Notes under the pieces: generated by a model
Database searches by the model: none
The model's input: the letters and a program-made list of their open reading frames with translations, nothing else
What the model was told of the DNA's origin: nothing
Shown here: in pieces, positions 2,121-26,503 of the stretch
How the letters are laid out: each line of letters begins with the position of its first letter
Position numbering within the stretch: position 1 is the first letter of the stretch
Position numbers and translations under genes: made by a program
From: Chitinophagales bacterium
GTDB lineage: Bacteria; Bacteroidota; Bacteroidia; Chitinophagales; Chitinophagaceae
NCBI GenBank assembly: GCA_030832085.1
Contig: JAURJU010000035.1
Coordinates: forward strand, 1-34,132
Direction of reading: 5' to 3'
DNA length: 34,132 bases

Positions 2121-2151
2121 TTTGAAAATGTTTTAAGTTTTCTTATATTTG
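2121..2151 (+). promoter_or_regulatory. Promoter of the aromatic amino acid operon
   Basis: A complete Bacteroidota promoter: -33 TTTG at 2121-2124, a 19-nt spacer, and -7 TATATTTG at 2144-2151. The expected transcription start lies within a few nucleotides of the leader-peptide ATG at 2157, so the leader mRNA is probably leaderless or nearly so. Confidence 0.85.
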
Positions 2152-2156
2152 CATTG

Positions 2157-2231
2157 ATGATATCAAACAGAACCCGTTACTTCTTTTATACTTATTACTA
2201 CTTTACCGGTGGTACGGGAACTTTTTGTTGA
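2157..2231 (+). CDS. pheL: Tyr/Phe-rich leader peptide of the aromatic operon attenuator
   Basis: A 24-codon frame (ATG 2157, TGA 2229) encoding MISNRTRYFFYTYYYFTGG followed by TGTFC. Residues 8-16 read YFFYTYYYF, so 8 of 9 consecutive codons are Tyr or Phe. It starts immediately after a perfect promoter and ends 34 nt before an intrinsic terminator that precedes pheA. This is the classical layout of ribosome-mediated attenuation: low charged tRNA-Tyr or tRNA-Phe stalls the ribosome on the run and prevents the terminator from forming. No mature protein function is expected. The symbol follows the E. coli analogue; the two are not necessarily homologous. The frame is far too biased in content, and too well placed, to be chance. 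Confidence 0.87.
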   Translation: MISNRTRYFFYTYYYFTGGTGTFC

Positions 2232-2272
2232 AAACCAAACAATAAACAAAACATCAACATAAGGATCCCGGT
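2173..2272 (+). promoter_or_regulatory. Alternative RNA pairings of the aromatic attenuator
   Basis: Three short segments can pair in mutually exclusive ways. CCCGT (2173-2177) pairs with ACGGG (2214-2218) as a possible 1:2 hairpin. CGGGA (2215-2219) pairs with TCCCG (2266-2270), and ACCGG (2205-2209) pairs with CCGGT (2268-2272); either would invade the left arm of the terminator. A ribosome stalled on codons 8-16 (2178-2204) would cover segment 1 and free the antiterminator. The pairings are visible, but their energetics were judged by eye. Confidence 0.6.
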
Positions 2273-2293
2273 TAACCCCCGGGATTTTTTTTT
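2265..2293 (+). terminator. Attenuator terminator upstream of pheA
   Basis: The stem ATCCCGG (2265-2271) pairs with CCGGGAT (2279-2285) around loop TTAACCC, and a run of nine T follows (2285-2293). It lies between the leader peptide and pheA, 12 nt before the pheA ATG, so it can only act to cut off the operon's own transcript. Confidence 0.88.
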
Positions 2294-2305
2294 AAGCATA
2301 ACCCA

Positions 2306-3190
2306 ATGATTGTAAAGAAATTGGAAACATCAAAAAAATCAGGAAACGGCAAGAAGGCATCTGCAGACCTCCCTTTGGCCATTCAAGGCTATGAAGGCAG
2401 CTTTCACCAGGTTGCTGCAAGATCCTTTTATGGTAAAAAGGCCCAGATTCTTCCATGTGCAACCTTCATTGAAGTGGTGAAGCAGGCTTCTGACCCTGCT
2501 GTGACCAGGGGGGGGATCATGGCCATCGAAAACTCCATTGCAGGAAGCATTTTACCCAATTATAACCTGTTGCAGAAGTCATCTCTTTTTGTAGCCGGTG
2601 AAGTGTATTTGCAAATCGATCAGCACCTGATGGTCAACCCTGGGGTAGAATTGAAAGACATCAAGGAAGTTCATTCTCACCCCATGGCATTGCAGCAATG
2701 TCTTGGATTTTTGAACCCGCATGGATGGAAATTGATTGAGACAGAAGATACTGCACTCAGTGCAAAGCATGTACAACTGCGCAAAAGCAAACATGTTGCC
2801 GCCATTGCGGGAAAACTGGCAGCAGAGTTGTTTGGATTGGACATCATCGCCCCTAAGATCCATGACGTCAAAAACAATTATACGCGGTTTCTAATCCTCC
2901 AGCAGCAACCCACTGAAATTGAAGGAGCCAACAAGGCCTCTATCAATTTTCACACCGATCATGCAAAGGGAAGGCTGTCTGAAGTGCTTACGGTGATTGC
3001 AAAGGAAGGAATCAACCTCAGCAAGCTGCAGTCGTTTCCAATTGCTGGAAGCAGGTTCAAGTATGGTTTTCATGCAGATCTGGAGTTTGATACCATTGAA
3101 CAGTACAAGCGGCTGATCAAAAAATTGGAAAAAATCACTGAATACCTCAGGGTGTTGGGTGTGTATAAAAAAGGAAAATTCAACAAATAG
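2306..3190 (+). CDS. pheA: Prephenate dehydratase
   Basis: Converts prephenate to phenylpyruvate, the committed step to phenylalanine. It has 294 residues: a lysine-rich N-terminal tail of about 25 residues, the dehydratase domain (about 26-205) with GYEGSFH, ENSIAGSI and the catalytic YTRF motif, then an ACT domain (about 215-290) that normally binds Phe for feedback control. In the ACT domain the usual ESRP signature is replaced by LQSFP (after NLSK), so effector binding may differ. There is no chorismate mutase domain; that activity is fused to the DAHP synthase encoded further down the operon. It is the first structural gene after the Tyr/Phe attenuator, and the next gene starts 4 nt downstream. 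Confidence 0.95.
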   Translation: MIVKKLETSKKSGNGKKASADLPLAIQGYEGSFHQVAARSFYGKKAQILPCATFIEVVKQASDPAVTRGGIMAIENSIAGSILPNYNLLQKSSLFVAGEVYLQIDQHLMVNPGVELKDIKEVHSHPMALQQCLGFLNPHGWKLIETEDTALSAKHVQLRKSKHVAAIAGKLAAELFGLDIIAPKIHDVKNNYTRFLILQQQPTEIEGANKASINFHTDHAKGRLSEVLTVIAKEGINLSKLQSFPIAGSRFKYGFHADLEFDTIEQYKRLIKKLEKITEYLRVLGVYKKGKFNK

Positions 3191-3194
3191 CACC

Positions 3195-4385
3195 ATGATA
3201 CAGGTTTCATCGAGATTGGAGGGTATAGGTGAATATTATTTTTCATCAAAGCTGAGGGAAATTGAAGAACTCAACAAGACAGGTCACCCGGTAGTCAACC
3301 TGGGCATCGGCAGTCCTGATTTGCCGCCCCATCCTTCGGTGGTGGAAGCATTGCATCAAGAGGCTGCAAAGCCGACAACGCATGCTTACCAGTCCTATAA
3401 GGGATCGCCGGTACTGCGCAACGCCATTGCAACCTGGTACAAACGTTGGTATCAGGTGGATGTTGATCCCAACACAGAGGTGCTTCCCCTGATTGGAAGC
3501 AAGGAGGGCATCATGCACATTTGCATGACCTATCTTGATCAGGGAGATGCGGCACTAGTTCCCAATCCAGGCTATCCGACCTATACCAGTGCAGTAAAAT
3601 TGGCCGGCGGTGAAGTCATTGCCTACCGTTTGGATGAGCAACACAATTGGCAACCAGACATCAGTCTTTTGAAGGAAATGGTTGAGGCATACCATAACAA
3701 CGGCAAGGGAAGGGTGAAGTTGCTTTTCCTGAACTATCCCCAGATGCCAACGGGCCAACTGCCCGATAAGAAGTTGCTGAAAGAAATCGTTGAATTTGCC
3801 CAGCAGCAGAACATCCTGATTGTTCATGATAATCCATACAGTTTTATCCTGAACGATGAACCTTCGAGCCTGTTTGAATTTGATGCATCCAAGTCGGTGG
3901 TGATAGAACTCAATTCATTGAGCAAGTCGCACAACATGGCCGGTTGGCGTGTGGGCATGCTGGTTGGTGCTGCAACGCATATCAATGCAATATTGCGGTT
4001 CAAAAGCAACATGGATTCTGGTATGTTTTTACCCGTTCAACTTGCTGCAGCCAAGGCATTGGAACTTGACCGTGAATGGTTTGACAGTGTCAATGATATT
4101 TACCGCCAGCGAAAAAACCAGGCAATGCACTTGTTGGATCTATTGGGCTGCACCTATGCCACCAACCAGGTAGGCATGTTTGTCTGGGCAAGGGTTCCTG
4201 GTCAGTATGCATCAGGATTTGAATTGAGTGATGCCGTTCTGAAAAATGCTAAGGTATTCATCACCCCGGGTGGAATTTTTGGGGATGCTGGAAATCAATA
4301 TGTGCGGGTAAGTCTTTGCAGCAAAAAAGAGTTGCTGGAAGAAGCAATATCACACGTACGGCAATGGCTAGAGGCTTTGGCATAA
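3195..4385 (+). CDS. Class I/II PLP-dependent aminotransferase, probably aromatic or prephenate
   Basis: A 396-residue fold-type I aminotransferase. Visible signatures are NLGIGSPDLPPHP near residue 35, PNPGYPTYTS, NYPQMPTG, HDNPYSF and the PLP-binding lysine K244 in NSLSKSHNMAGWRVG. The ATG at 3195 gives a normal N-terminus; a longer in-frame extension overlapping pheA is unlikely. Position between pheA and tyrA in an aromatic operon suggests it transaminates phenylpyruvate and 4-hydroxyphenylpyruvate, or prephenate itself. The sequence also resembles the LL-diaminopimelate aminotransferase-like group, so substrate is an inference from context. It is translationally close to pheA (4-nt gap). 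Confidence 0.85.
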   Translation: MIQVSSRLEGIGEYYFSSKLREIEELNKTGHPVVNLGIGSPDLPPHPSVVEALHQEAAKPTTHAYQSYKGSPVLRNAIATWYKRWYQVDVDPNTEVLPLIGSKEGIMHICMTYLDQGDAALVPNPGYPTYTSAVKLAGGEVIAYRLDEQHNWQPDISLLKEMVEAYHNNGKGRVKLLFLNYPQMPTGQLPDKKLLKEIVEFAQQQNILIVHDNPYSFILNDEPSSLFEFDASKSVVIELNSLSKSHNMAGWRVGMLVGAATHINAILRFKSNMDSGMFLPVQLAAAKALELDREWFDSVNDIYRQRKNQAMHLLDLLGCTYATNQVGMFVWARVPGQYASGFELSDAVLKNAKVFITPGGIFGDAGNQYVRVSLCSKKELLEEAISHVRQWLEALA

Positions 4386-4408
4386 AACCTAATGTAAAAA
4401 TCAGGAAG

Positions 4409-5254
4409 ATGAAAAAGAATTTTGCAATCGTTGGTGTGGGTTTGATTGGTGGTTCGTTGGCCCTCAAATGCAGAAAAAATGGATTGGCCGAGAAGATTTT
4501 TGGTGTTGATAGCAACCAAGAACATGCGAAGAAGGCCCTGGAATTGGGTCTTGTGGATGAAATGGTGACCATGGAAGAAGCCATACAACATGCTGATGTC
4601 ATTGCGCTTGCCGTTCCTGTTGGCGTCTTGTCAACGATGCTTTCTAAGGTGCTGGATCAGGTTACACAACAAGTGGTCATCGATATGGGGTCCACCAAAA
4701 GTCTGCTTGCCGGCTTGGTCAAAAACCATCCCAACAGGGGGCGTCTTGTTGCATCACATCCAATGTGGGGAACAGAATACAGTGGTCCTTCAGCTGCTGT
4801 TGAGCATGCTTTTGAAAACAAGGCAGTAATCCTTTGCGATACAAAAGAAACGGATGAAGACGCATTGGCGCTTGCAACAGCCCTGTTCAAATCGTTGCAG
4901 ATGCGCATCATTGAGATGGACTCGAATGACCATGATCTTCATGCGGCATATGTCAGCCATATCTCACACATCACATCTTTTGCATTGGCCAATACGGTTT
5001 TGGAAAAGGAGAAGGAAGACAATGCCATCTTCGAAATGGCCAGTGCGGGTTTTGAAAGTACAGTGCGTTTGGCAAAGAGCAGCCCCGAAATGTGGACGCC
5101 GATACTCATGCAAAACCGGGAAAATATTCTTGATGTCTTGAATGAACACATCACACAATTGAGAAAATTCAAATCCTGTCTTGAAAAAGAAAACTGGGAG
5201 TACTTGAATGAACTTATGGAAAAGGCAAACCAGATCCGCAGGATCATACACTAA
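4409..5254 (+). CDS. tyrA: Prephenate dehydrogenase
   Basis: Oxidatively decarboxylates prephenate to 4-hydroxyphenylpyruvate using NAD(P)+, the committed step to tyrosine. It has 281 residues. The Rossmann motif GVGLIGGS begins at residue 9, followed by VDSN at the end of strand 2 (an acidic residue that favours NAD+). The conserved substrate-pocket segment ASHPMWGTEYSGP contains H117, and the helical dimerisation domain includes SHISH. The ATG at 4409 is chosen because it puts the Gly-rich loop at the usual distance from the N-terminus; an earlier in-frame start would overlap the aminotransferase gene. There is no ACT domain and no fused chorismate mutase, so enzyme-level feedback by Tyr is not obvious. 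Confidence 0.94.
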   Translation: MKKNFAIVGVGLIGGSLALKCRKNGLAEKIFGVDSNQEHAKKALELGLVDEMVTMEEAIQHADVIALAVPVGVLSTMLSKVLDQVTQQVVIDMGSTKSLLAGLVKNHPNRGRLVASHPMWGTEYSGPSAAVEHAFENKAVILCDTKETDEDALALATALFKSLQMRIIEMDSNDHDLHAAYVSHISHITSFALANTVLEKEKEDNAIFEMASAGFESTVRLAKSSPEMWTPILMQNRENILDVLNEHITQLRKFKSCLEKENWEYLNELMEKANQIRRIIH

Positions 5255-5302: not shown

Positions 5303-6391
5303 ATGGAAACAACTGAAACAACCCATCAATCAACAGTTCAGGCCGCTTGGAACAAAAGACCATTGATTATTTCAGGACCCTGCAGCGCAGAAACTGAAGA
5401 ACAAGTCATTGAAACTGCACAACGTCTTGCCAACACGGGCAAGGTTGACATGTTGCGTGCAGGCATCTGGAAACCAAGAACCAAGCCGGGAATGTTTGAG
5501 GGCATAGGTGCAAAAGGATTGCCATGGCTTCAGCAGGCAAAAAAACTGACTGGCCTTCCTACTACTGTTGAGGTAGCAACTGGCAAGCAGGTTGAGGACG
5601 CATTGACCTTTGATGTTGATGTACTGTGGATTGGTGCAAGAACCACCGTAAATCCTTTCAGTGTCCAGGAAGTTGCTGATGCACTGCGTGGTGTTGATGT
5701 TCCCGTATTGATCAAGAACCCCATCAATCCGGATCTTGAACTTTGGCAGGGCGCTGTTGAACGTGTTTCAAGGGCTGGCATCAAACAAATAGGGTTGATC
5801 CACCGCGGATTTTCGTCTTATGGAAATACTGAATTCAGGAATGCGCCCATGTGGCACCTTGCGATTGAGATGAAGCGCAGAATGCCTGGTATGCCCATCA
5901 TCAATGACCCATCGCATATTTGTGGTCGCAGGGATATTCTGCAATCCACTGCCCAAAAGGCCATTGACCTTGATTTTGACGGGTTGATGATTGAAAGCCA
6001 TATCGATCCGGACAATGCCTGGAGTGATGCGAAACAGCAGATCACACCTGAGCGCCTCTCTGAAATGTTGTCCAGCATGACCTGGAGAAAGGAAGATGTA
6101 ACTTCTGAATCCTTTCATGCTGCACTGGACAAGCTCCGCGAGCAGATCAACCATATTGACGATGAGTTGATGCAATTGATTGCACAGCGGATGTCAATCG
6201 CAGAAAAGATTGGTGAATACAAGCGCAACAACAATGTAACCATTCTTCAGGCCACGCGCTGGAATGAAATACTTGAAAAGGCCTTGCAAAAGGCCGGAAA
6301 GGTAGGATTGAGTGAAGAGTTCATTTCCCGTTACATGGATGCAATTCACATGGAAAGCATCAACAGGCAGAATAAGATCATGAATGATTGA
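5303..6391 (+). CDS. Bifunctional DAHP synthase / chorismate mutase
   Basis: A 362-residue fusion. Residues about 18-260 form a type I-beta (KDOPS-like) 3-deoxy-7-phosphoheptulonate synthase with SGPCSAET, KPRTKPGMFEG, GARTTVNPFSVQE, LIHRGFS and DPSHICGRR; it condenses PEP and erythrose 4-phosphate, the entry step of the shikimate pathway. Residues about 275-360 form an AroQ-type all-helical chorismate mutase (LREQINHIDDELMQLIAQR, then IAEKIGEYK), which makes prephenate for PheA and TyrA. In such fusions the mutase domain also serves as a sensor for chorismate or prephenate feedback. A 48-nt gap separates it from tyrA and contains a weak -7-like TAATTTTA, so an internal promoter is possible. 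The aroB gene follows 5 nt downstream. Confidence 0.95.
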   Translation: METTETTHQSTVQAAWNKRPLIISGPCSAETEEQVIETAQRLANTGKVDMLRAGIWKPRTKPGMFEGIGAKGLPWLQQAKKLTGLPTTVEVATGKQVEDALTFDVDVLWIGARTTVNPFSVQEVADALRGVDVPVLIKNPINPDLELWQGAVERVSRAGIKQIGLIHRGFSSYGNTEFRNAPMWHLAIEMKRRMPGMPIINDPSHICGRRDILQSTAQKAIDLDFDGLMIESHIDPDNAWSDAKQQITPERLSEMLSSMTWRKEDVTSESFHAALDKLREQINHIDDELMQLIAQRMSIAEKIGEYKRNNNVTILQATRWNEILEKALQKAGKVGLSEEFISRYMDAIHMESINRQNKIMND

Positions 6392-6396
6392 TATTG

Positions 6397-7440
6397 ATGA
6401 ACAAGAAGAAATTTATATTTTCCAGTGCTTCGGTTGATTTTTATTTTGATGCACTGTTCAGTCAACTGGACAAGGTTGTTGATCGAAAAAAAGCAATTCT
6501 CATCACAGATGAGCATGTTTTCGGAGCGCATAAAACAAAGTTCAGGAACTGGAATGTGATCACGCTGAAGCCCGGCGAGGCATACAAGATCCAGCCAACG
6601 GCTGATGCCATCATAGAGCAGCTAATTGGATTTCAGGCCGACAGAACATCCATGCTGGTGGGAGTCGGTGGAGGAGTGGTTACCGACCTGACAGGCTATG
6701 TGGCTTCCATTTTCATGCGTGGCATCCGATTTGGTTTTGTTCCAACGTCACTGCTGGCCATGGTGGACGCTTCGATAGGTGGGAAAAACGGTATTGATGT
6801 AGGTCAGTATAAAAACATGGTCGGCATCATCAGGCAACCATCCTTCATTTTTTACGACCAGTCATTCCTGAAGACCCTTCCCGACGCTGAATGGTCGAAT
6901 GGATTCGCAGAAATCATCAAGCATGCATGCATCCTCGATGCCAAGGCATTCAATTTGTTGGCATCCACAACATTGGAAAGGGTCAAAAAGAGCCGCAAGT
7001 TGATGCAGGACATCATACTGCGCAATGTAAAATTGAAGGCTGGTGTAGTGAAGAAAGATGAGTTTGAAAACGGGGATCGAAAGCTCTTGAATTTTGGACA
7101 CACCTTGGGTCATGCACTGGAAACGCAATATGAATTGACACATGGACAAGCCGTCTCTTTGGGTATGGTATTTGCTGCATGGCTTTCAGGAAAACTGCTT
7201 GGATTCAAGGATATTGAACGCCTGGAAAACGTGCTGATCAATTTTGGATTGCCCACCCGTGCTGGTTTTGATGTGGAGAAGGTTTTCAAGGTCTTGGTCA
7301 TGGACAAGAAACGGGTCAGCACAACAATGAATTATGTGTTGTTGAAAAAAACAGGAAAAGGCATCATTCATGCGATCGATATCGAAGCATTGAAGCTGCA
7401 CCTTTCTGCATTCAATGCATCAAATAAAAAGAAAACATGA
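6397..7440 (+). CDS. aroB: 3-dehydroquinate synthase
   Basis: Converts DAHP to 3-dehydroquinate, the second step of the chorismate pathway, using NAD+ and a divalent metal. It has 347 residues. Family signatures are visible: GVGGGVVTDLTGYVA (NAD and substrate loop), PTSLLAMVDASIGGKNGID, and the metal-binding stretches FAEIIKHA and NFGHTLGHALE. The ATG at 6397 follows the previous stop by 5 nt; an in-frame TTG at 6388 would overlap it and is less likely. The stop overlaps the aroA start as ATGA (7437-7440), so aroB and aroA are probably translationally coupled. Confidence 0.95.
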   Translation: MNKKKFIFSSASVDFYFDALFSQLDKVVDRKKAILITDEHVFGAHKTKFRNWNVITLKPGEAYKIQPTADAIIEQLIGFQADRTSMLVGVGGGVVTDLTGYVASIFMRGIRFGFVPTSLLAMVDASIGGKNGIDVGQYKNMVGIIRQPSFIFYDQSFLKTLPDAEWSNGFAEIIKHACILDAKAFNLLASTTLERVKKSRKLMQDIILRNVKLKAGVVKKDEFENGDRKLLNFGHTLGHALETQYELTHGQAVSLGMVFAAWLSGKLLGFKDIERLENVLINFGLPTRAGFDVEKVFKVLVMDKKRVSTTMNYVLLKKTGKGIIHAIDIEALKLHLSAFNASNKKKT

Positions 7441-8717
7441 TTGCAATCGTTCAACCCTCTGGCATTGAAGGGTCCATTCGTGCTCCACGGTCCAAAAGCG
7501 ACATGCAAAGGGCTTGTGCTGCAGCATTGCTTCACCAGGGAACCACGCATATTGTTGATCCCGGAAGAAGCAACGATGATCAGGCGGCCATGGATGTGGT
7601 AGCCAAACTAGGTGCAACAGTAACTGATCATGGAGATGCCATCTCTATTCAAAGCCGGGGCGTAGATCCAGTTTCACGTGAAATCAATTGTGGTGAAAGT
7701 GGCTTGGGCATCAGGATGTTTTCACCCATCGCTGCAATGAGTGCCAGGGAATTGAGCATTTCTGGGACAGGATCTCTTTTGAAAAGGCCCATGGATTTTT
7801 TTGATGCCATATTCCCTCAACTGGGCATTTTCATTTCGTCCAATGCAGGGAAACTGCCCTTGGTCATCAAAGGCCCGTTGCAGCCCAGTTCTATAGAAGT
7901 TGATGGGAGCTTGAGTTCACAGTTCCTCACAGGTTTGCTGATGGCTTATTCTGCTTCAGGTGCAAACGGGGTCACCATAAAGGTCAAAGACCTTAAGAGT
8001 AAACCCTATATTGATCTTACCCTTGGCGTCTTGAAGTCGTTTGGAATGAAACCGCCTTTGGTGGACAATTACGAAAATTTCACTTTCGAAGCAGCGCAAC
8101 ATCTGCAGCCTGTTGGCGACATTACCTATCGTGTAGAAGGCGATTGGAGTGGTGCTGCATTTTTGTTTGTGGCTGCTGCCATAGCAGGAAACGTTTCCAT
8201 CCAGGGCATGAGGGCCGATTCTGTGCAGGCAGACATTAAAATCCTGGAGGCAATAAAAGATGCTGGCGCCAGCTTACAATTCAAGGAGGGCATTTACCTT
8301 GTTGGGCCCGCTGCGCTAAAGGCTTTCAGTTTTGATGCAACAGAATGCCCTGATCTTTTTCCGCCATTGGTTGCACTTGCAGCTTATTGCAACGGTATTA
8401 CAAGGATCAAAGGCGCCAATCGCCTGACCCACAAAGAAAGCAACAGGGCACTGACCCTCCAGGATGTATTCGGAAGAATGGGCGTTAAAATAGAATTGGA
8501 AGGGGATATGATGATTGTGCATGGCGGCCTTCCTTTGAAAGCTGCAAGGGTCCACTCACACCATGACCACCGCATTGCAATGGCAGCCGCTGTTGCGGCA
8601 CTTCGTGCCGATGGGGAAGTGGTGATTGATGATGCTGAGGCCATCGACAAATCATACCCCGATTTTTATGAACACATGCAATCTCTTGGCGCATCCATAG
8701 CATTACAAACGCAATAA
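7437..8717 (+). CDS. aroA: 5-enolpyruvylshikimate-3-phosphate synthase
   Basis: Transfers the enolpyruvyl group of PEP to shikimate 3-phosphate, the sixth step of the chorismate pathway. It has 426 residues and the two-domain repeat architecture of the family. Visible signatures: APRSKSDMQR (15-24, the substrate-binding Lys20), CGESGLGIRM (85-94, replacing the classical GNAGTAMRP loop), GSLSSQFLTGLL, and HSHHDHRIAMAAAV near the C-terminus. The altered loop keeps the Gly that matches E. coli G96 and the Arg, but has other residues at the T97 and P101 positions. Its start overlaps the aroB stop, and aroC follows 9 nt downstream. Confidence 0.94.
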   Translation: MIAIVQPSGIEGSIRAPRSKSDMQRACAAALLHQGTTHIVDPGRSNDDQAAMDVVAKLGATVTDHGDAISIQSRGVDPVSREINCGESGLGIRMFSPIAAMSARELSISGTGSLLKRPMDFFDAIFPQLGIFISSNAGKLPLVIKGPLQPSSIEVDGSLSSQFLTGLLMAYSASGANGVTIKVKDLKSKPYIDLTLGVLKSFGMKPPLVDNYENFTFEAAQHLQPVGDITYRVEGDWSGAAFLFVAAAIAGNVSIQGMRADSVQADIKILEAIKDAGASLQFKEGIYLVGPAALKAFSFDATECPDLFPPLVALAAYCNGITRIKGANRLTHKESNRALTLQDVFGRMGVKIELEGDMMIVHGGLPLKAARVHSHHDHRIAMAAAVAALRADGEVVIDDAEAIDKSYPDFYEHMQSLGASIALQTQ

Positions 8718-8726
8718 TTTCAATCC

Positions 8727-9722
8727 ATGAACCATTTTGGTAAATTGTTTTCGGTAAATATTTTTGGAGAATCCCATGGTGAAAGTGTTGGTGTGGTGAT
8801 AGATGGTTGTCCTGCAGGTATGCCACTTGCCGTTGAAGATTTTATCATTGATACAGAAAGGCGCAAAGGTGGAACCCAAAAAGGAACGACACCCCGCCAG
8901 GAGGAAGACCTTCCTTTTTTTAAAAGTGGAGTTTTCAATGGTAAAACCACTGGCGCTCCTTTGACATTGCTGTTTGAAAATAAAAATACAAGGTCAGGCG
9001 ACTACGAGAAACAGCGTGCTGTACCAAGGCCAGGGCATGCAGATTTTGTAGCCCACAAAAAATATGGAGGATTTGAGGATTTTAGGGGTGGTGGCCATTT
9101 CAGCGGACGTCTCACCCTTTGTCTTGTGGCAGCAGGTGTTGTGGCAAAAAAAATATTGAGAACGGTTACCGTCGTTGCTGACATCACTTCGATTGGAGGG
9201 GAGCCTGGAACAGAAAAGGGCTTGCAAAAGGCCATTGAAAACAAAGATTCTGTAGGTGGAATTGTAGAGTGCAGGGTCAATGGACTTCCACTTGGGTTGG
9301 GAGAGCCGTTCTTTGATTCTGTGGAATCGCTCATTGCACATGCTGTTTTTGCCATTCCTGCGGTTCGAGGAATTGAATTTGGCACCGGCTTCAAGGCCGC
9401 AGACATGTTTGGAATTGATCACAATGATGCCATCGAAAATGCATCAGGCAAAACATCCACCAATCATGCAGGTGGAATCGTTGGTGGCATTACCAATGGA
9501 AATGAATTGGTGTTCAGGATCGCCATCAAGCCAACCTCATCTACCCCAAAGGATCAATTTACCTACAACTGGGAATCTGACCAGATGGAAGCATTTGCTG
9601 TAAGGGGCCGGCATGACCTTTGCATCGCATTGCGCGTTCCTCCAGTATTGGAAGCCACAACTGCAATTGTTTTGGTTGATCTGATGTTGCGCGAGCAAAT
9701 GATAAAAAGGGTATATTCATAG
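8727..9722 (+). CDS. aroC: Chorismate synthase
   Basis: Makes chorismate from EPSP by anti-1,4-elimination, using reduced FMN as a non-consumed cofactor. It has 331 residues, shorter than the roughly 360 of E. coli AroC. Signatures: FGESHGESVGVVIDG (13-27), RPGHADF, FRGGGHFSGRLT (in place of the classical GGRSSAR, a variant I associate with Bacteroides and Clostridia enzymes), NHAGGIVGGITNG and the C-terminal RGRHDLC. It completes the chorismate steps in this operon. The genes for dehydroquinase, shikimate dehydrogenase and shikimate kinase are not in the window. Confidence 0.95.
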   Translation: MNHFGKLFSVNIFGESHGESVGVVIDGCPAGMPLAVEDFIIDTERRKGGTQKGTTPRQEEDLPFFKSGVFNGKTTGAPLTLLFENKNTRSGDYEKQRAVPRPGHADFVAHKKYGGFEDFRGGGHFSGRLTLCLVAAGVVAKKILRTVTVVADITSIGGEPGTEKGLQKAIENKDSVGGIVECRVNGLPLGLGEPFFDSVESLIAHAVFAIPAVRGIEFGTGFKAADMFGIDHNDAIENASGKTSTNHAGGIVGGITNGNELVFRIAIKPTSSTPKDQFTYNWESDQMEAFAVRGRHDLCIALRVPPVLEATTAIVLVDLMLREQMIKRVYS

Positions 9723-23880: not shown

Positions 23881-26322
23881 TTAATTGTTGATGGTTCTCA
23901 ATGCATCCGCAAATACACCGCTTGCAGTTACTTCTGCACCAGCGCCAGCGCCTTTGATGACCAAGGGCTGTTGGGCATACCGGTCGGTATAAAACAATAC
24001 GATATTGTCCTTTCCGTACAAATGGTACATCTCACTTTCCGGCTTGATGTGCTGTAGACCTACGGAGGCCTTTCCGTTTTCAAGACAAGCCACAAATTTT
24101 AGTTTTGAATTGTTGCTGTTTGCCTTGTCCAGCAAGGATTTAAAGTGCTCCTCCTGGTATAGCATTTCCTTGTAAAAGTCTTCTACACCACCATTCATGC
24201 AACTTTCAGGTAAAAATCCGTTGCATTGGATATCATTCATTTCCATGGGGATGCCAGCTTCTCTTGCTAAAATCATGATTTTGCGCATGACATCCTTTCC
24301 GCTGAGGTCAAGGCGGGGGTCCGGTTCTGTGAACCCTTCATTTTGGGCATCTTTTACGACGGACGAAAAAGATTTTATCCCATCATAGTTGTTGAATACG
24401 TAATTAAGGGTGCCACTGAGTACGGCCTCTATCTTGTGGATGCGGTCGCCGCTTTTGATGATATCATTCAATGTTCCGATAACGGGGAGGGCTGCTCCTA
24501 CATTGGTTTCAAAAAGAAATTTGCAGTTATAGGACACCGCAAGATCTTTCAGTGTTTTATACTGCAAGAATGCATCGGAAGCAGCAATTTTGTTACAGGC
24601 CACCACAGACATTGATTTTTTCAAGATGCCTGCATAAAGGGATGGAATCAGCGCATTGGCCGTGATGTCCATCAGTACACTGTTTCGAAGGTTCAATGCA
24701 ATCATTTTTTCTGCGAAGGCCAATGGGTCAGCTGTTTCTGCTGCTGCCAATTGCTCCTGCCATTGGTGGAGGTCAATTCCCTCTTGATCAATTGTCATTT
24801 TTCTGCTGTTGCAGATTCCAACCACATTCATTTTTATCCTGTGCAATTGGGCAATTGTCTCTGTTTGTCTGCGGACTTGTTCAATCAGTTTTTTCCCGAC
24901 ATTTCCTGTGCCAACGATGAAAAGATTCAGTTCTTTTTTTGCGCCTTCAAAGAATGCCTCATGCAATACATTGATGGCCTTGATGCGATTGCCTGAACCA
25001 ATCACTGCTGAAATATTCCTTTCATTCGAACCCTGGGCAATGGCCAGCACGTTGATGCCATTTCTTCCAAGTGCGCTGAACATTCTGCCGCTGATGCCCG
25101 GGTGACTTTTCATGTTCTCTCCTACGAGTGCGACAATACTCGCATCCTCAGCAGTCTTGATGGGCTGAAGTATGCCGTTCACGATTTCAGTCTCAAATGA
25201 AGCTTGGAGCTTTTGAAGTGCATCCTTTACTGCATTGCCATGCACTGCCACGCAAATGGAGTGTTCCGATGAACCCTGTGAGATGAGCACAACATTGATG
25301 GAGGCGTCATTCAGGCTGGCAAATACCCTTTTTGCAAACCCCGGTACCCCAATCATGCCGCTGCCTTCAATGCTGATCAAGGCAACATTGTCAGTGGAAG
25401 AAATGCCTGTAATCATTTCTGTTTTGGGCGATACGCCATGGTGTATCAAAGTGTGGTTTCGATGCATCTCTTCAAGATGGCGGACCTGTATGGGAATGCT
25501 TTTCCGTATGGCTGTATTCAATGCAGATGGTGAAATTGCATTGTTTTCAAATTGGGTGAGTTCAATGGCTTCTTCATACGTGAGTTCTGGAATGACTTTT
25601 GCGTTTTTCACCCAGCGCGGGTCTGCGGTTGTGTACGCATAACCGGACGCCCAGATTTCCATTTCGCTTGCTTTCACAGCGCCAGCAATAAATGCGGCAG
25701 ACAGCTCTGCGCCCCCCTTCCCAAAATAAATGGTATTTCCTTTATGATCTCTTCCAGATCCTCCTGAAATAACATGGATACCCCAATGGGCGGTGCCCCA
25801 TTTTTCCTGAATGTTTTTTCTGGTTTCCCCCTCGTTGCTGACTATTGAACCATTGATCAGTTCTACCATCAGCAAGTCCCTGATGTCCGTCCATGTGGTG
25901 TTGCCCATTTTTTCATTTGTCGCAGATGCAAAAAGAAAAGAGGAAAGGAGAGATGCAAAATGGACAATTTCTTGGGCTGTTTTTTCTGGTAGCTCACCAA
26001 GCAATTGAATGCCCTTGCAAAGGTCCTCCAGCGCGTTGAACCTTTGTTTTACAAAGCTTAAAATGGCACTCTGTTGTGTGATCGGAATGATGGCCCTTGT
26101 AAGGTCCAGAAACTCCTTTTCCATCGTTGATATTCTTTCTGCGAACAGTTGTGATTGGTCGCGTGCTGAAATTGCAATATCCAGCAGTTCCTTTTCTGTT
26201 TGTGCAGACCCGGAAACAACAACAACCGGGGAGTCATTTTTTATTTGTTCAAGGTACCCGATGGCCTTGAAAAGCTTTTCAGGACTTGAAAGCATTCCGC
26301 CTTCAATTTTTATCAATTTCAT
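23881..26322 (-). CDS. thrA: Aspartokinase-homoserine dehydrogenase fusion with a degenerate kinase domain
   Basis: An 813-residue protein colinear with E. coli ThrA: kinase domain (about 1-290), two ACT domains (about 311-377 and 393-460), homoserine dehydrogenase (about 464-813). The dehydrogenase looks intact: GTGNVG (471-476), ACNK, FETNVGAALPVI, LSGTLNYVF and EPDPRLDLSGKDVMRK. The kinase motifs are eroded: KFGGTSV is KIEGGML (5-11), GRGGSDYSA is GKGGAELSA (201-209), WTDVDGVYTADP is WASGYAYTTADP (224-235), YFGAKVLHP is QFENNAISP (257-265), and the GExxS motif is not recognisable near 124-130. I infer dehydrogenase activity, with the kinase lost or strongly changed. The ATG at 26322 is preferred to an in-frame TTG at 26439 that overlaps the leader peptide. 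Confidence 0.88.
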   Translation of the reverse strand: MKLIKIEGGMLSSPEKLFKAIGYLEQIKNDSPVVVVSGSAQTEKELLDIAISARDQSQLFAERISTMEKEFLDLTRAIIPITQQSAILSFVKQRFNALEDLCKGIQLLGELPEKTAQEIVHFASLLSSFLFASATNEKMGNTTWTDIRDLLMVELINGSIVSNEGETRKNIQEKWGTAHWGIHVISGGSGRDHKGNTIYFGKGGAELSAAFIAGAVKASEMEIWASGYAYTTADPRWVKNAKVIPELTYEEAIELTQFENNAISPSALNTAIRKSIPIQVRHLEEMHRNHTLIHHGVSPKTEMITGISSTDNVALISIEGSGMIGVPGFAKRVFASLNDASINVVLISQGSSEHSICVAVHGNAVKDALQKLQASFETEIVNGILQPIKTAEDASIVALVGENMKSHPGISGRMFSALGRNGINVLAIAQGSNERNISAVIGSGNRIKAINVLHEAFFEGAKKELNLFIVGTGNVGKKLIEQVRRQTETIAQLHRIKMNVVGICNSRKMTIDQEGIDLHQWQEQLAAAETADPLAFAEKMIALNLRNSVLMDITANALIPSLYAGILKKSMSVVACNKIAASDAFLQYKTLKDLAVSYNCKFLFETNVGAALPVIGTLNDIIKSGDRIHKIEAVLSGTLNYVFNNYDGIKSFSSVVKDAQNEGFTEPDPRLDLSGKDVMRKIMILAREAGIPMEMNDIQCNGFLPESCMNGGVEDFYKEMLYQEEHFKSLLDKANSNNSKLKFVACLENGKASVGLQHIKPESEMYHLYGKDNIVLFYTDRYAQQPLVIKGAGAGAEVTASGVFADALRTINN

Positions 26323-26401
26323 GTCATGTGAATTGCAATGGTAATGGAAAGGAATTTCTTCCGTGTAATCAGCAGGTGCCCAATTGTAATATGAAATGTT
26401 C

Positions 26402-26418
26402 CAACCCTTAGCGGGTTG
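26402..26418 (-). promoter_or_regulatory. Hairpin enclosing the stop codon of the Thr leader
   Basis: On the minus strand CAACCC (26418-26413) pairs with GGGTTG (26407-26402) around loop GCTAA, which holds the leader stop TAA (26410-26408). No T tract follows, so it is not an ordinary intrinsic terminator. A ribosome at the end of the leader would melt it. A competing pairing exists between GTTGG (26405-26401) and CCAAC near the leader start. Confidence 0.5.
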
Positions 26419-26503
26419 TTGTAGTGAATGTGGTAGCAAATGCAGCGCAAGAAGCCATGGAAGCTTCTTTACAGGTAATGATATGTTGAACGTTGGCTGT
26501 CAT
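26408..26503 (-). CDS. thrL: Threonine-rich leader peptide upstream of thrABC
   Basis: A 31-codon frame in the 5' region of thrA. It encodes MTANVQHIITCKEASMASC then AAFATTFTTTTR, with eight Thr in total and six of the seven residues 24-30 Thr, just before the TAA. It begins 17 nt after a TAATTTTG promoter element, so its ATG is the first in the predicted mRNA. It resembles in design the E. coli thr leader, which also carries Thr and Ile runs. Charged tRNA-Thr supply would therefore set how far the ribosome moves. What differs is the absence of a terminator between it and thrA. The symbol is by analogy only. Confidence 0.72.
   Translation of the reverse strand: MTANVQHIITCKEASMASCAAFATTFTTTTR

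Follow-up and report, generated by a model that had tools for sequence, protein, structure and literature searches.

A leader-peptide attenuator with phenylalanine and tyrosine codons very probably controls the aromatic amino acid operon of a Chitinophagaceae bacterium

The window analysed here is the whole of a 34,132-nt stretch of a Chitinophagales bacterium (contig JAURJU010000035.1, assembly GCA_030832085.1). On its plus strand a pheA-aminotransferase-tyrA-aroF/CM-aroB-aroA-aroC operon, whose products are Phe and Tyr plus their precursors, follows a DEAD-box helicase gene that ends at position 2112. A promoter occupies the 44 nt that separate the helicase stop codon from the ATG of a short leader ORF, and a terminator lies between that ORF and pheA. 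The features are as follows.

2121..2151, plus strand: Bacteroidota sigma-A promoter, read from sequence, with TTTG at 2121-2124, a 19-nt spacer and TATATTTG at 2144-2151
2157..2231, plus strand: leader-peptide ORF MISNRTRYFFYTYYYFTGGTGTFC, 24 codons with TGA at 2229-2231, conserved in the family and the class
2173..2180, plus strand: segment 1 of the protector hairpin (CCCGTTAC), pairing with 2212-2218 (P 0.84 without a ribosome)
2212..2231, plus strand: segment 2 (GTACGGGAACTTTTTGTTGA), which includes the leader stop codon and is the 5' side of the antiterminator, pairing with 2254-2270
2254..2271, plus strand: segment 3 (TCAACATAAGGATCCCGG), which forms the antiterminator's 3' side and also supplies the terminator's 5' arm
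2265..2293, plus strand: intrinsic terminator, a 7-bp stem (ATCCCGG at 2265-2271, CCGGGAT at 2279-2285) followed by a T tract
2306..3190, plus strand: pheA, prephenate dehydratase, the first gene controlled (NCBIfam PRK11899/PRK11898, below the curated cut-off)
3195..4385, plus strand: PLP aminotransferase (below curated cut-offs)
4406..5254, plus strand: tyrA, prephenate dehydrogenase (NF006307, above cut-off)
5303..6391, plus strand: DAHP synthase fused to chorismate mutase, aroF/CM (below curated cut-offs)
6397..7440, plus strand: aroB, 3-dehydroquinate synthase (TIGR01357, above cut-off)
7437..8717, plus strand: aroA, EPSP synthase (TIGR01356, above cut-off)
8727..9722, plus strand: aroC, chorismate synthase (TIGR00033, above cut-off)

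Codons 8-16 of the leader (2178-2204) read YFFYTYYYF, eight of the nine being aromatic (five Tyr, three Phe), and one more Phe stands at codon 23, outside the run. An earlier reading of this DNA, made from the sequence only, had described a 24-codon leader with eight aromatics in nine positions, and direct reading agrees. Its count of five Tyr and four Phe holds over the whole leader if Phe23 is included, but the run itself has five and three. The TTTG-N19-TATATTTG promoter that it had proposed is present at 2121-2151, with five bases between TATATTTG and the leader ATG. Its 7-bp GC-rich terminator with nine T is likewise found at 2265-2293, the nine T spanning 2285-2293 and the first of them paired. 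A simple hairpin scanner left this plus-strand hairpin unlisted and listed only its minus-strand mirror. With the end of the helicase gene so close ahead of the ATG, the hairpin might be a plain terminator of that gene lying beside a chance ORF, an explanation that is hardly credible because it is contradicted by conservation, promoter position and the shuffle controls given below.

Relatives of the window were sampled in two ways. A PheA search of 60 relatives gave 42 with a match, and the best 30 of these 42 loci were taken, the window’s own included. A sample of named genomes kept 80 loci of 99, from records named mostly as Chitinophagaceae, Bacteroidetes/Bacteroidota or lower taxa, with several labelled “uncultured bacterium” and two labelled Williamsia and Ignavibacteriaceae. 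The aromatic leader was found in 28 of the 30 same-genus loci, window included, and the remaining two had no upstream DNA. At least seven aromatics in ten codons were present upstream of pheA in 72/78 named and window loci versus 1/780 dinucleotide shuffles, and at least six in 75/78 (one of them, L082, looks spurious) versus 26/780; the leader search reached up to 480 nt upstream and each shuffle covered 300 nt. The 78 loci are those with at least 250 nt of upstream DNA. Shorter ones (L016, L029, L076, L085, L100 and also L221) were left uncounted, and L100 shows the leader nonetheless. For the comparisons that follow, loci scoring below six and L082 were left out and leaders identical over 130 nt were merged, giving 86 distinct leaders; because this set was picked for six or more aromatics, its counts describe leaders and not all loci. 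The sequence-only reading had named a lack of conservation in close relatives as one finding that would count against it, and both the aromatic leader and the terminator are kept there. Two Arachidicoccus loci (L087 and L089) have an aromatic leader without a close TAnnTTTG box and with antiterminator complementarity that is not significant, perhaps because the switch has diverged or is decaying.

A hairpin of -8 kcal/mol or lower plus a T tract follows all 86 distinct leaders, 18-55 nt past the stop codon, and the same finder returned 16 hits in 430 shuffles. These figures come from a widened search, then shuffle-controlled, since in 11 of the 86 the first terminator finder saw no hairpin that reached -8 kcal/mol. 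The complementarity test used a stricter terminator set and therefore covers 75 loci. Segment 2 is complementary to the terminator 5' arm and its preceding bases at p<0.05 in 72 of these 75 (against shuffled segment 2), which bears out the earlier suggestion of short segments able to form a competing antiterminator, here spanning 2215-2270. Complementarity between segments 1 and 2 exceeds shuffles at p<0.05 in 45/75. Among 49 terminator arms distinct in their last eight bases, many of which still share a TCCCGG core, cognate segment-2 duplexes average -12.84 kcal/mol versus -9.71 +/- 0.31 kcal/mol when permuted, and none of 20,000 permutations reached the observed value (p 5e-5). This is a clear sequence signal that antiterminator and terminator change together across divergent loci. 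In a close alignment of 23 sequences the antiterminator is 88.5% paired and the terminator has a compensatory change at one pair; no antiterminator co-variation above shuffles was found in that alignment because both arms are nearly invariant.

Folding with and without a ribosome footprint had also been put forward as a check, and was carried out here on the window RNA 2157-2292. The assumed footprint took in the 17 nt ahead of the first base of the A-site codon and reached 14 nt past that base. With no ribosome, the probabilities of terminator and antiterminator core were 0.85 and 0.14, and that of the protector was 0.84. With the A site at codon 8 they became 0.02 and 0.95, at codon 11 0.00 and 0.96, at codon 13 0.27 and 0.71, at codon 15 0.99 and 0.00, and at the stop codon 1.00 and 0.00. 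In the model a stall lowers the terminator and the stop codon restores it, with terminator probabilities of 0.00-0.27 for codons 8-13 and 0.98-1.00 from codon 15 onward and at the stop. The effective stall zone in this model, Y8-F9-F10-Y11-Y13, includes both amino acids, and no antitermination is predicted for stalls at Tyr14, Tyr15 or Phe16. As modelled, the window’s folding is a classical three-hairpin, three-state switch. The balance is fine, since the minimum fold of 2157-2305 is the antiterminator and 2157-2292 favors protector plus terminator.

At folding equilibrium, only 39 of the 86 leaders both lost the terminator on stalling and terminated at the stop codon, and 35 of these also terminate by default. 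Terminator probability stayed at 0.5 or above at every aromatic stall tested in 44/86, and co-transcriptional kinetics would have to decide in those leaders. Folds of truncated RNA imitating the co-transcriptional order did not discriminate stalled from terminating ribosomes, because any pairing of the arm with upstream bases added to the score. Computation shows the parts of the element and how far they are conserved, the coupled variation of antiterminator and terminator and, in the window, a switch between folds.

From these observations we infer the transcription start, leader translation, stalling and the response to amino acids. The element is very probably a ribosome-mediated transcription attenuator sensing charged tRNA-Phe and tRNA-Tyr, as the sequence-only reading had proposed and as comparative evidence and the modelled folding of the window both indicate. 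Transcription would begin at, or a few bases before, the leader ATG, and a ribosome would load on this leaderless or near-leaderless start. When Phe- or Tyr-tRNA is scarce, the ribosome would stall in codons 8-13 and mask segment 1 (2173-2180), leaving segment 2 (2212-2231) free for segment 3 (2254-2270). The antiterminator so formed would hide the terminator 5' arm, and RNA polymerase would proceed into pheA-AT-tyrA-aroF-aroB-aroA-aroC. When both tRNAs are plentiful, the ribosome would reach the stop codon, which lies within segment 2, so that the terminator at 2265-2293 can form and transcription stops. With no ribosome on the leader, segment 1 would pair with segment 2, and termination would again be the default.

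Terminator and antiterminator alternatives do not on their own prove that a ribosome is the sensor. A riboswitch, a T-box or an RNA-binding protein might drive the same terminator, with the ORF incidental. We consider this very improbable: at Rfam gathering thresholds no T-box or riboswitch was detected in the window or in eight related loci, the conserved thing is the reading frame, its aromatic codons persisting as the RNA sequence changes, and the stop codon sits in segment 2, as a ribosome switch requires.

The same leaders bear on which amino acids are read. Both Phe and Tyr codons occur in 86/86 distinct leaders (454 Phe and 312 Tyr in all), and a Trp codon also occurs in 11/86. The order of F and Y shifts between lineages and the aromatic run is retained, which argues that both amino acids are read. 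It might be that one amino acid alone matters in vivo and the other aromatic codons are tolerated neighbors, as the excess of Phe over Tyr codons could hint. Upstream of pheA in L105, L106 and L107 (PheA identity 60-61%) stands a short leader that is nearly all Phe (MNPANRFYFFSFFFFTR, one Tyr in each). We judge a single effector improbable, given the presence of both codon kinds in every leader and in the window’s stall zone and of both pheA and tyrA in the operon. Dual sensing, already proposed from the window’s mixture of codons, is backed by this comparison, which suggests a leader able to read two amino acids ahead of an operon that makes both.

The survey was extended to the class with 53 loci, of which 52 were usable and two (L173 and L188) belong to the window’s family. 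The sampling is uneven: 40 loci came from 41 PF00800 matches in 149 genomes, six were among the matches listed from 394 genomes, and seven came from the PheA search of 60 relatives. A leader with six or more aromatics was detected in 26/52 loci (24/50 outside the family), each with a terminator, compared with 13/820 shuffles from a pool that includes loci of other classes. The other 26 loci had no leader at this threshold; three reach five aromatics and 23 have none even at that level. The element thus appears widespread in Bacteroidia, with many absences. Antiterminator complementarity was significant (p<0.05) in 20 of the 26 class leaders, and some of these antiterminators differ strongly in sequence, e.g., AGTTAGGATTG/AATCCTGAT and GTTGAGACTTTG/AAAGTCTCGA. 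The leaders themselves can lie far from the window’s sequence (MATNRFYFSNNFYFFFSRS in L181, MLQNTWQGFYFYFYFFYKS in L201 and MIKGYFYGYYFFRS in L217), and the loci carrying one include L181 and L184, which are probably Flavobacterium-like. One locus, L202, is counted in this survey and was dropped from the permutation test since its top ORF looked spurious. In other classes, none of 30 loci had a leader with six or more aromatics, these being the top 30 PF00800 matches from 394 genomes and not an even sample.

In the 34-kb window, taking both strands, the leader is the sole short ORF (8-45 codons) of the form TAnnTTTG-N2-9-ATG. A TAnnTTTG box with five or six of its six defined positions stands upstream of 84/86 distinct family leaders, and in 75/86 the ATG follows the box G at a distance of 3-9 nt. 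Four of the five leaders with a 10-nt distance have an in-frame ATG at 4 nt, and the family’s two leaders from the class set stand at 21 nt (L173) and 8 nt (L188). Long ORFs at the same loci have a full promoter within 60 nt in 4/373 cases, at 13, 13, 23 and 38 nt, although this control must be interpreted with caution because most of these ORFs are probably inside operons. In Flavobacterium psychrophilum a TAnnTTTG-type box occupies -12 to -5 (PMC9723704), which would place the window’s transcription start at about 2156 and leave between 0 and about 5 nt separating start and ATG in the family’s leaders. This promoter spacing is the evidence for the earlier claim of a start codon at or near the mRNA 5' end, and we regard a leaderless or near-leaderless start as strongly suggested by it, short of proof.

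The same attenuator could instead have a leader usually translated from a longer 5' UTR, supplied by an upstream start or by readthrough from the helicase gene. Leaderless mRNAs make up a small share of those mapped, about 3.7% (5' UTR <10 nt) in Bacteroides thetaiotaomicron (PMC7366714) and 5.5% in F. psychrophilum (PMC9723704). His leaders of the family reach 18 nt from the box, and where an exact box precedes a Phe/Tyr leader outside the family the distance is 15-35 nt (11/11), a range that also takes in L173 within the family; 12 further leaders outside the family with weaker boxes (four or five of six positions) range over 2-44 nt, and five of these do not exceed 8 nt. The short distances that prevail in the family, and a promoter that fills the helicase stop-to-ATG gap, make a longer 5' UTR unlikely for the leaders considered here, if still deserving some weight. 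The near-zero 5' UTR predicted by promoter spacing across most of the family is to us the most interesting residue of the analysis.

At the Rfam gathering threshold, the window returned only a tRNA, located elsewhere, and eight related loci returned nothing but two Flavo-1 matches. Both of these (RF01705) are in L181, the Flavobacterium-like pheA locus, at 6821-6896 (minus strand) and 9434-9511 (plus strand). The Phe_leader family RF01859 gave the top bit score among 4227 Rfam families, matching model positions 1-125 with 25.8 bits versus a gathering threshold of 55 (E 0.027, or 0.013 on a shorter stretch), and a minus-strand IS009 match ranks higher by E-value. For these two reasons we do not class the element as a member of RF01859, although it would work like one. 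In enterobacteria, the pheA leader peptide encoded by pheL has many Phe codons. The window’s element shares with the pheL attenuator an aromatic-codon leader before pheA and the protector, antiterminator and terminator hairpins, but it has many Tyr codons beside Phe, precedes an operon that includes tyrA and common-pathway genes, and has a start codon adjoining its promoter; no sequence homology was shown between the two. Mixed regulatory codons are known from the thr and ilv leaders of enterobacteria.

Attenuation by leader peptides has been raised before for the phylum. Vitreschak, in 2004, reportedly named Bacteroidetes/Chlorobi attenuators. The Bacteroid-trp motif RF01692, which had no match in the window at the gathering threshold, is read as a trp attenuator. 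PMC2864571 lists it, under a name taken from trp, as a predicted cis-regulatory RNA in Bacteroidetes. In 2010, leader-peptide systems had, to the knowledge of the authors of one study, been shown only in Proteobacteria and Actinobacteria before their own Firmicutes case, ermC aside (PMC2965389). Leader-like sORFs are mentioned in B. thetaiotaomicron (PMC7366714). The closest precedent in gene and phylum comes from PMC9723704, which reports hints that leader peptides attenuate amino-acid operons in F. psychrophilum and, in Flavobacteriaceae, conserved structured 5' elements without Rfam matches upstream of pheA and hisG. The main-text passages on these elements give no peptide or structure for pheA and do not deal with Chitinophagaceae. 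A leaderless leader ORF has a precedent in Sinorhizobium meliloti, where the RNA rnTrpL (trpL/peTrpL) is stated to begin with the trpL ATG (PMC7298713), likewise an amino-acid attenuator leader at the RNA start, but for Trp and in an alphaproteobacterium. No paper on a Chitinophagaceae pheA attenuator was found in the open literature searched. The earlier remark that this exact element seemed undescribed for the group needs correcting as to the mechanism class and a pheA 5' element, both already reported in Flavobacteriaceae (PMC9723704). The mechanism is ordinary and its conservation good, and within the literature searched it is apparently new to the record for Chitinophagaceae.

Candidate leaders for other amino acids were seen alongside. 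The hisG operon of the window’s own genome (L225, about 1349-1500) and the loci L224-L241 have a His leader (MLANGHIHHHHNLP) accompanied by a T tract and a GC-rich hairpin. In this set (19 loci fetched and 18 scanned, 16 of the 18 from the window’s genus) the leader start lies exactly 4 nt past TAnnTTTG in 15/18, two of the starts being GTG. Over the wider family, 26 of 28 loci scanned have a His leader, at a box-to-start distance of 4-18 nt, so the 4-nt rule is not general for His. On the minus strand of the window, at 26320-26503, a Thr-rich leader ORF (...ATTFTTTTR*) precedes bifunctional thrA (frame 23881-26439). A leader ORF of this kind is also present in 10/11 other thrA upstream regions (L303-L313, one being a second copy from the same genome), L311 having none. 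The final codons of the window’s Thr-rich ORF fold into a CAACCC/GGGTTG hairpin that spans the stop codon and is followed by a strikingly conserved noncoding stretch resembling CATATTACCATTGGGC. Neither an evident U-tract terminator nor an Rfam match at E<=1 was found in this region, and the element may be a Thr leader working by a non-classical route.

Upstream of trpE, 3 of 15 loci scanned (L314, L316 and L322) have leaders with WWW or WW (MNLNNKHWWWHTHS, MINNNWWWHTNS and MTALKINGWWHSNS), each followed by a GC-rich hairpin and a T-rich stretch; none was clear in the window’s own genome. Among 16 loci scanned upstream of ilvD, only L243, from another family of the order, has a short ORF rich in Ile, Val and Leu (MNNKQLSVILSIIISVVNIY) with a hairpin and T tract, and no branched-chain leader is evident in the window’s genus.

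The pheA element provides a concrete and conserved model of classical attenuation in Bacteroidia that had no Rfam family at threshold on the loci tested, and the 86 distinct leaders suffice for building an annotation model. Translation initiation in Bacteroidota is said not to rely on Shine-Dalgarno sequences. We tentatively propose, as a plausible idea that may well not hold, that attenuator leader ORFs in Chitinophagaceae are kept at the transcription start, with the Phe/Tyr ATG of most family members between +1 and about +6 and the His start exactly 4 nt past the box in the window’s genus, and that leaderless initiation serves as a built-in means of loading ribosomes on nascent leader RNA. 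If true, leader-peptide attenuators would form a functional class, conserved as such, among the leaderless mRNAs of Bacteroidota, and their near-zero 5' UTR would be a testable case of early ribosome access to nascent RNA without Shine-Dalgarno pairing.
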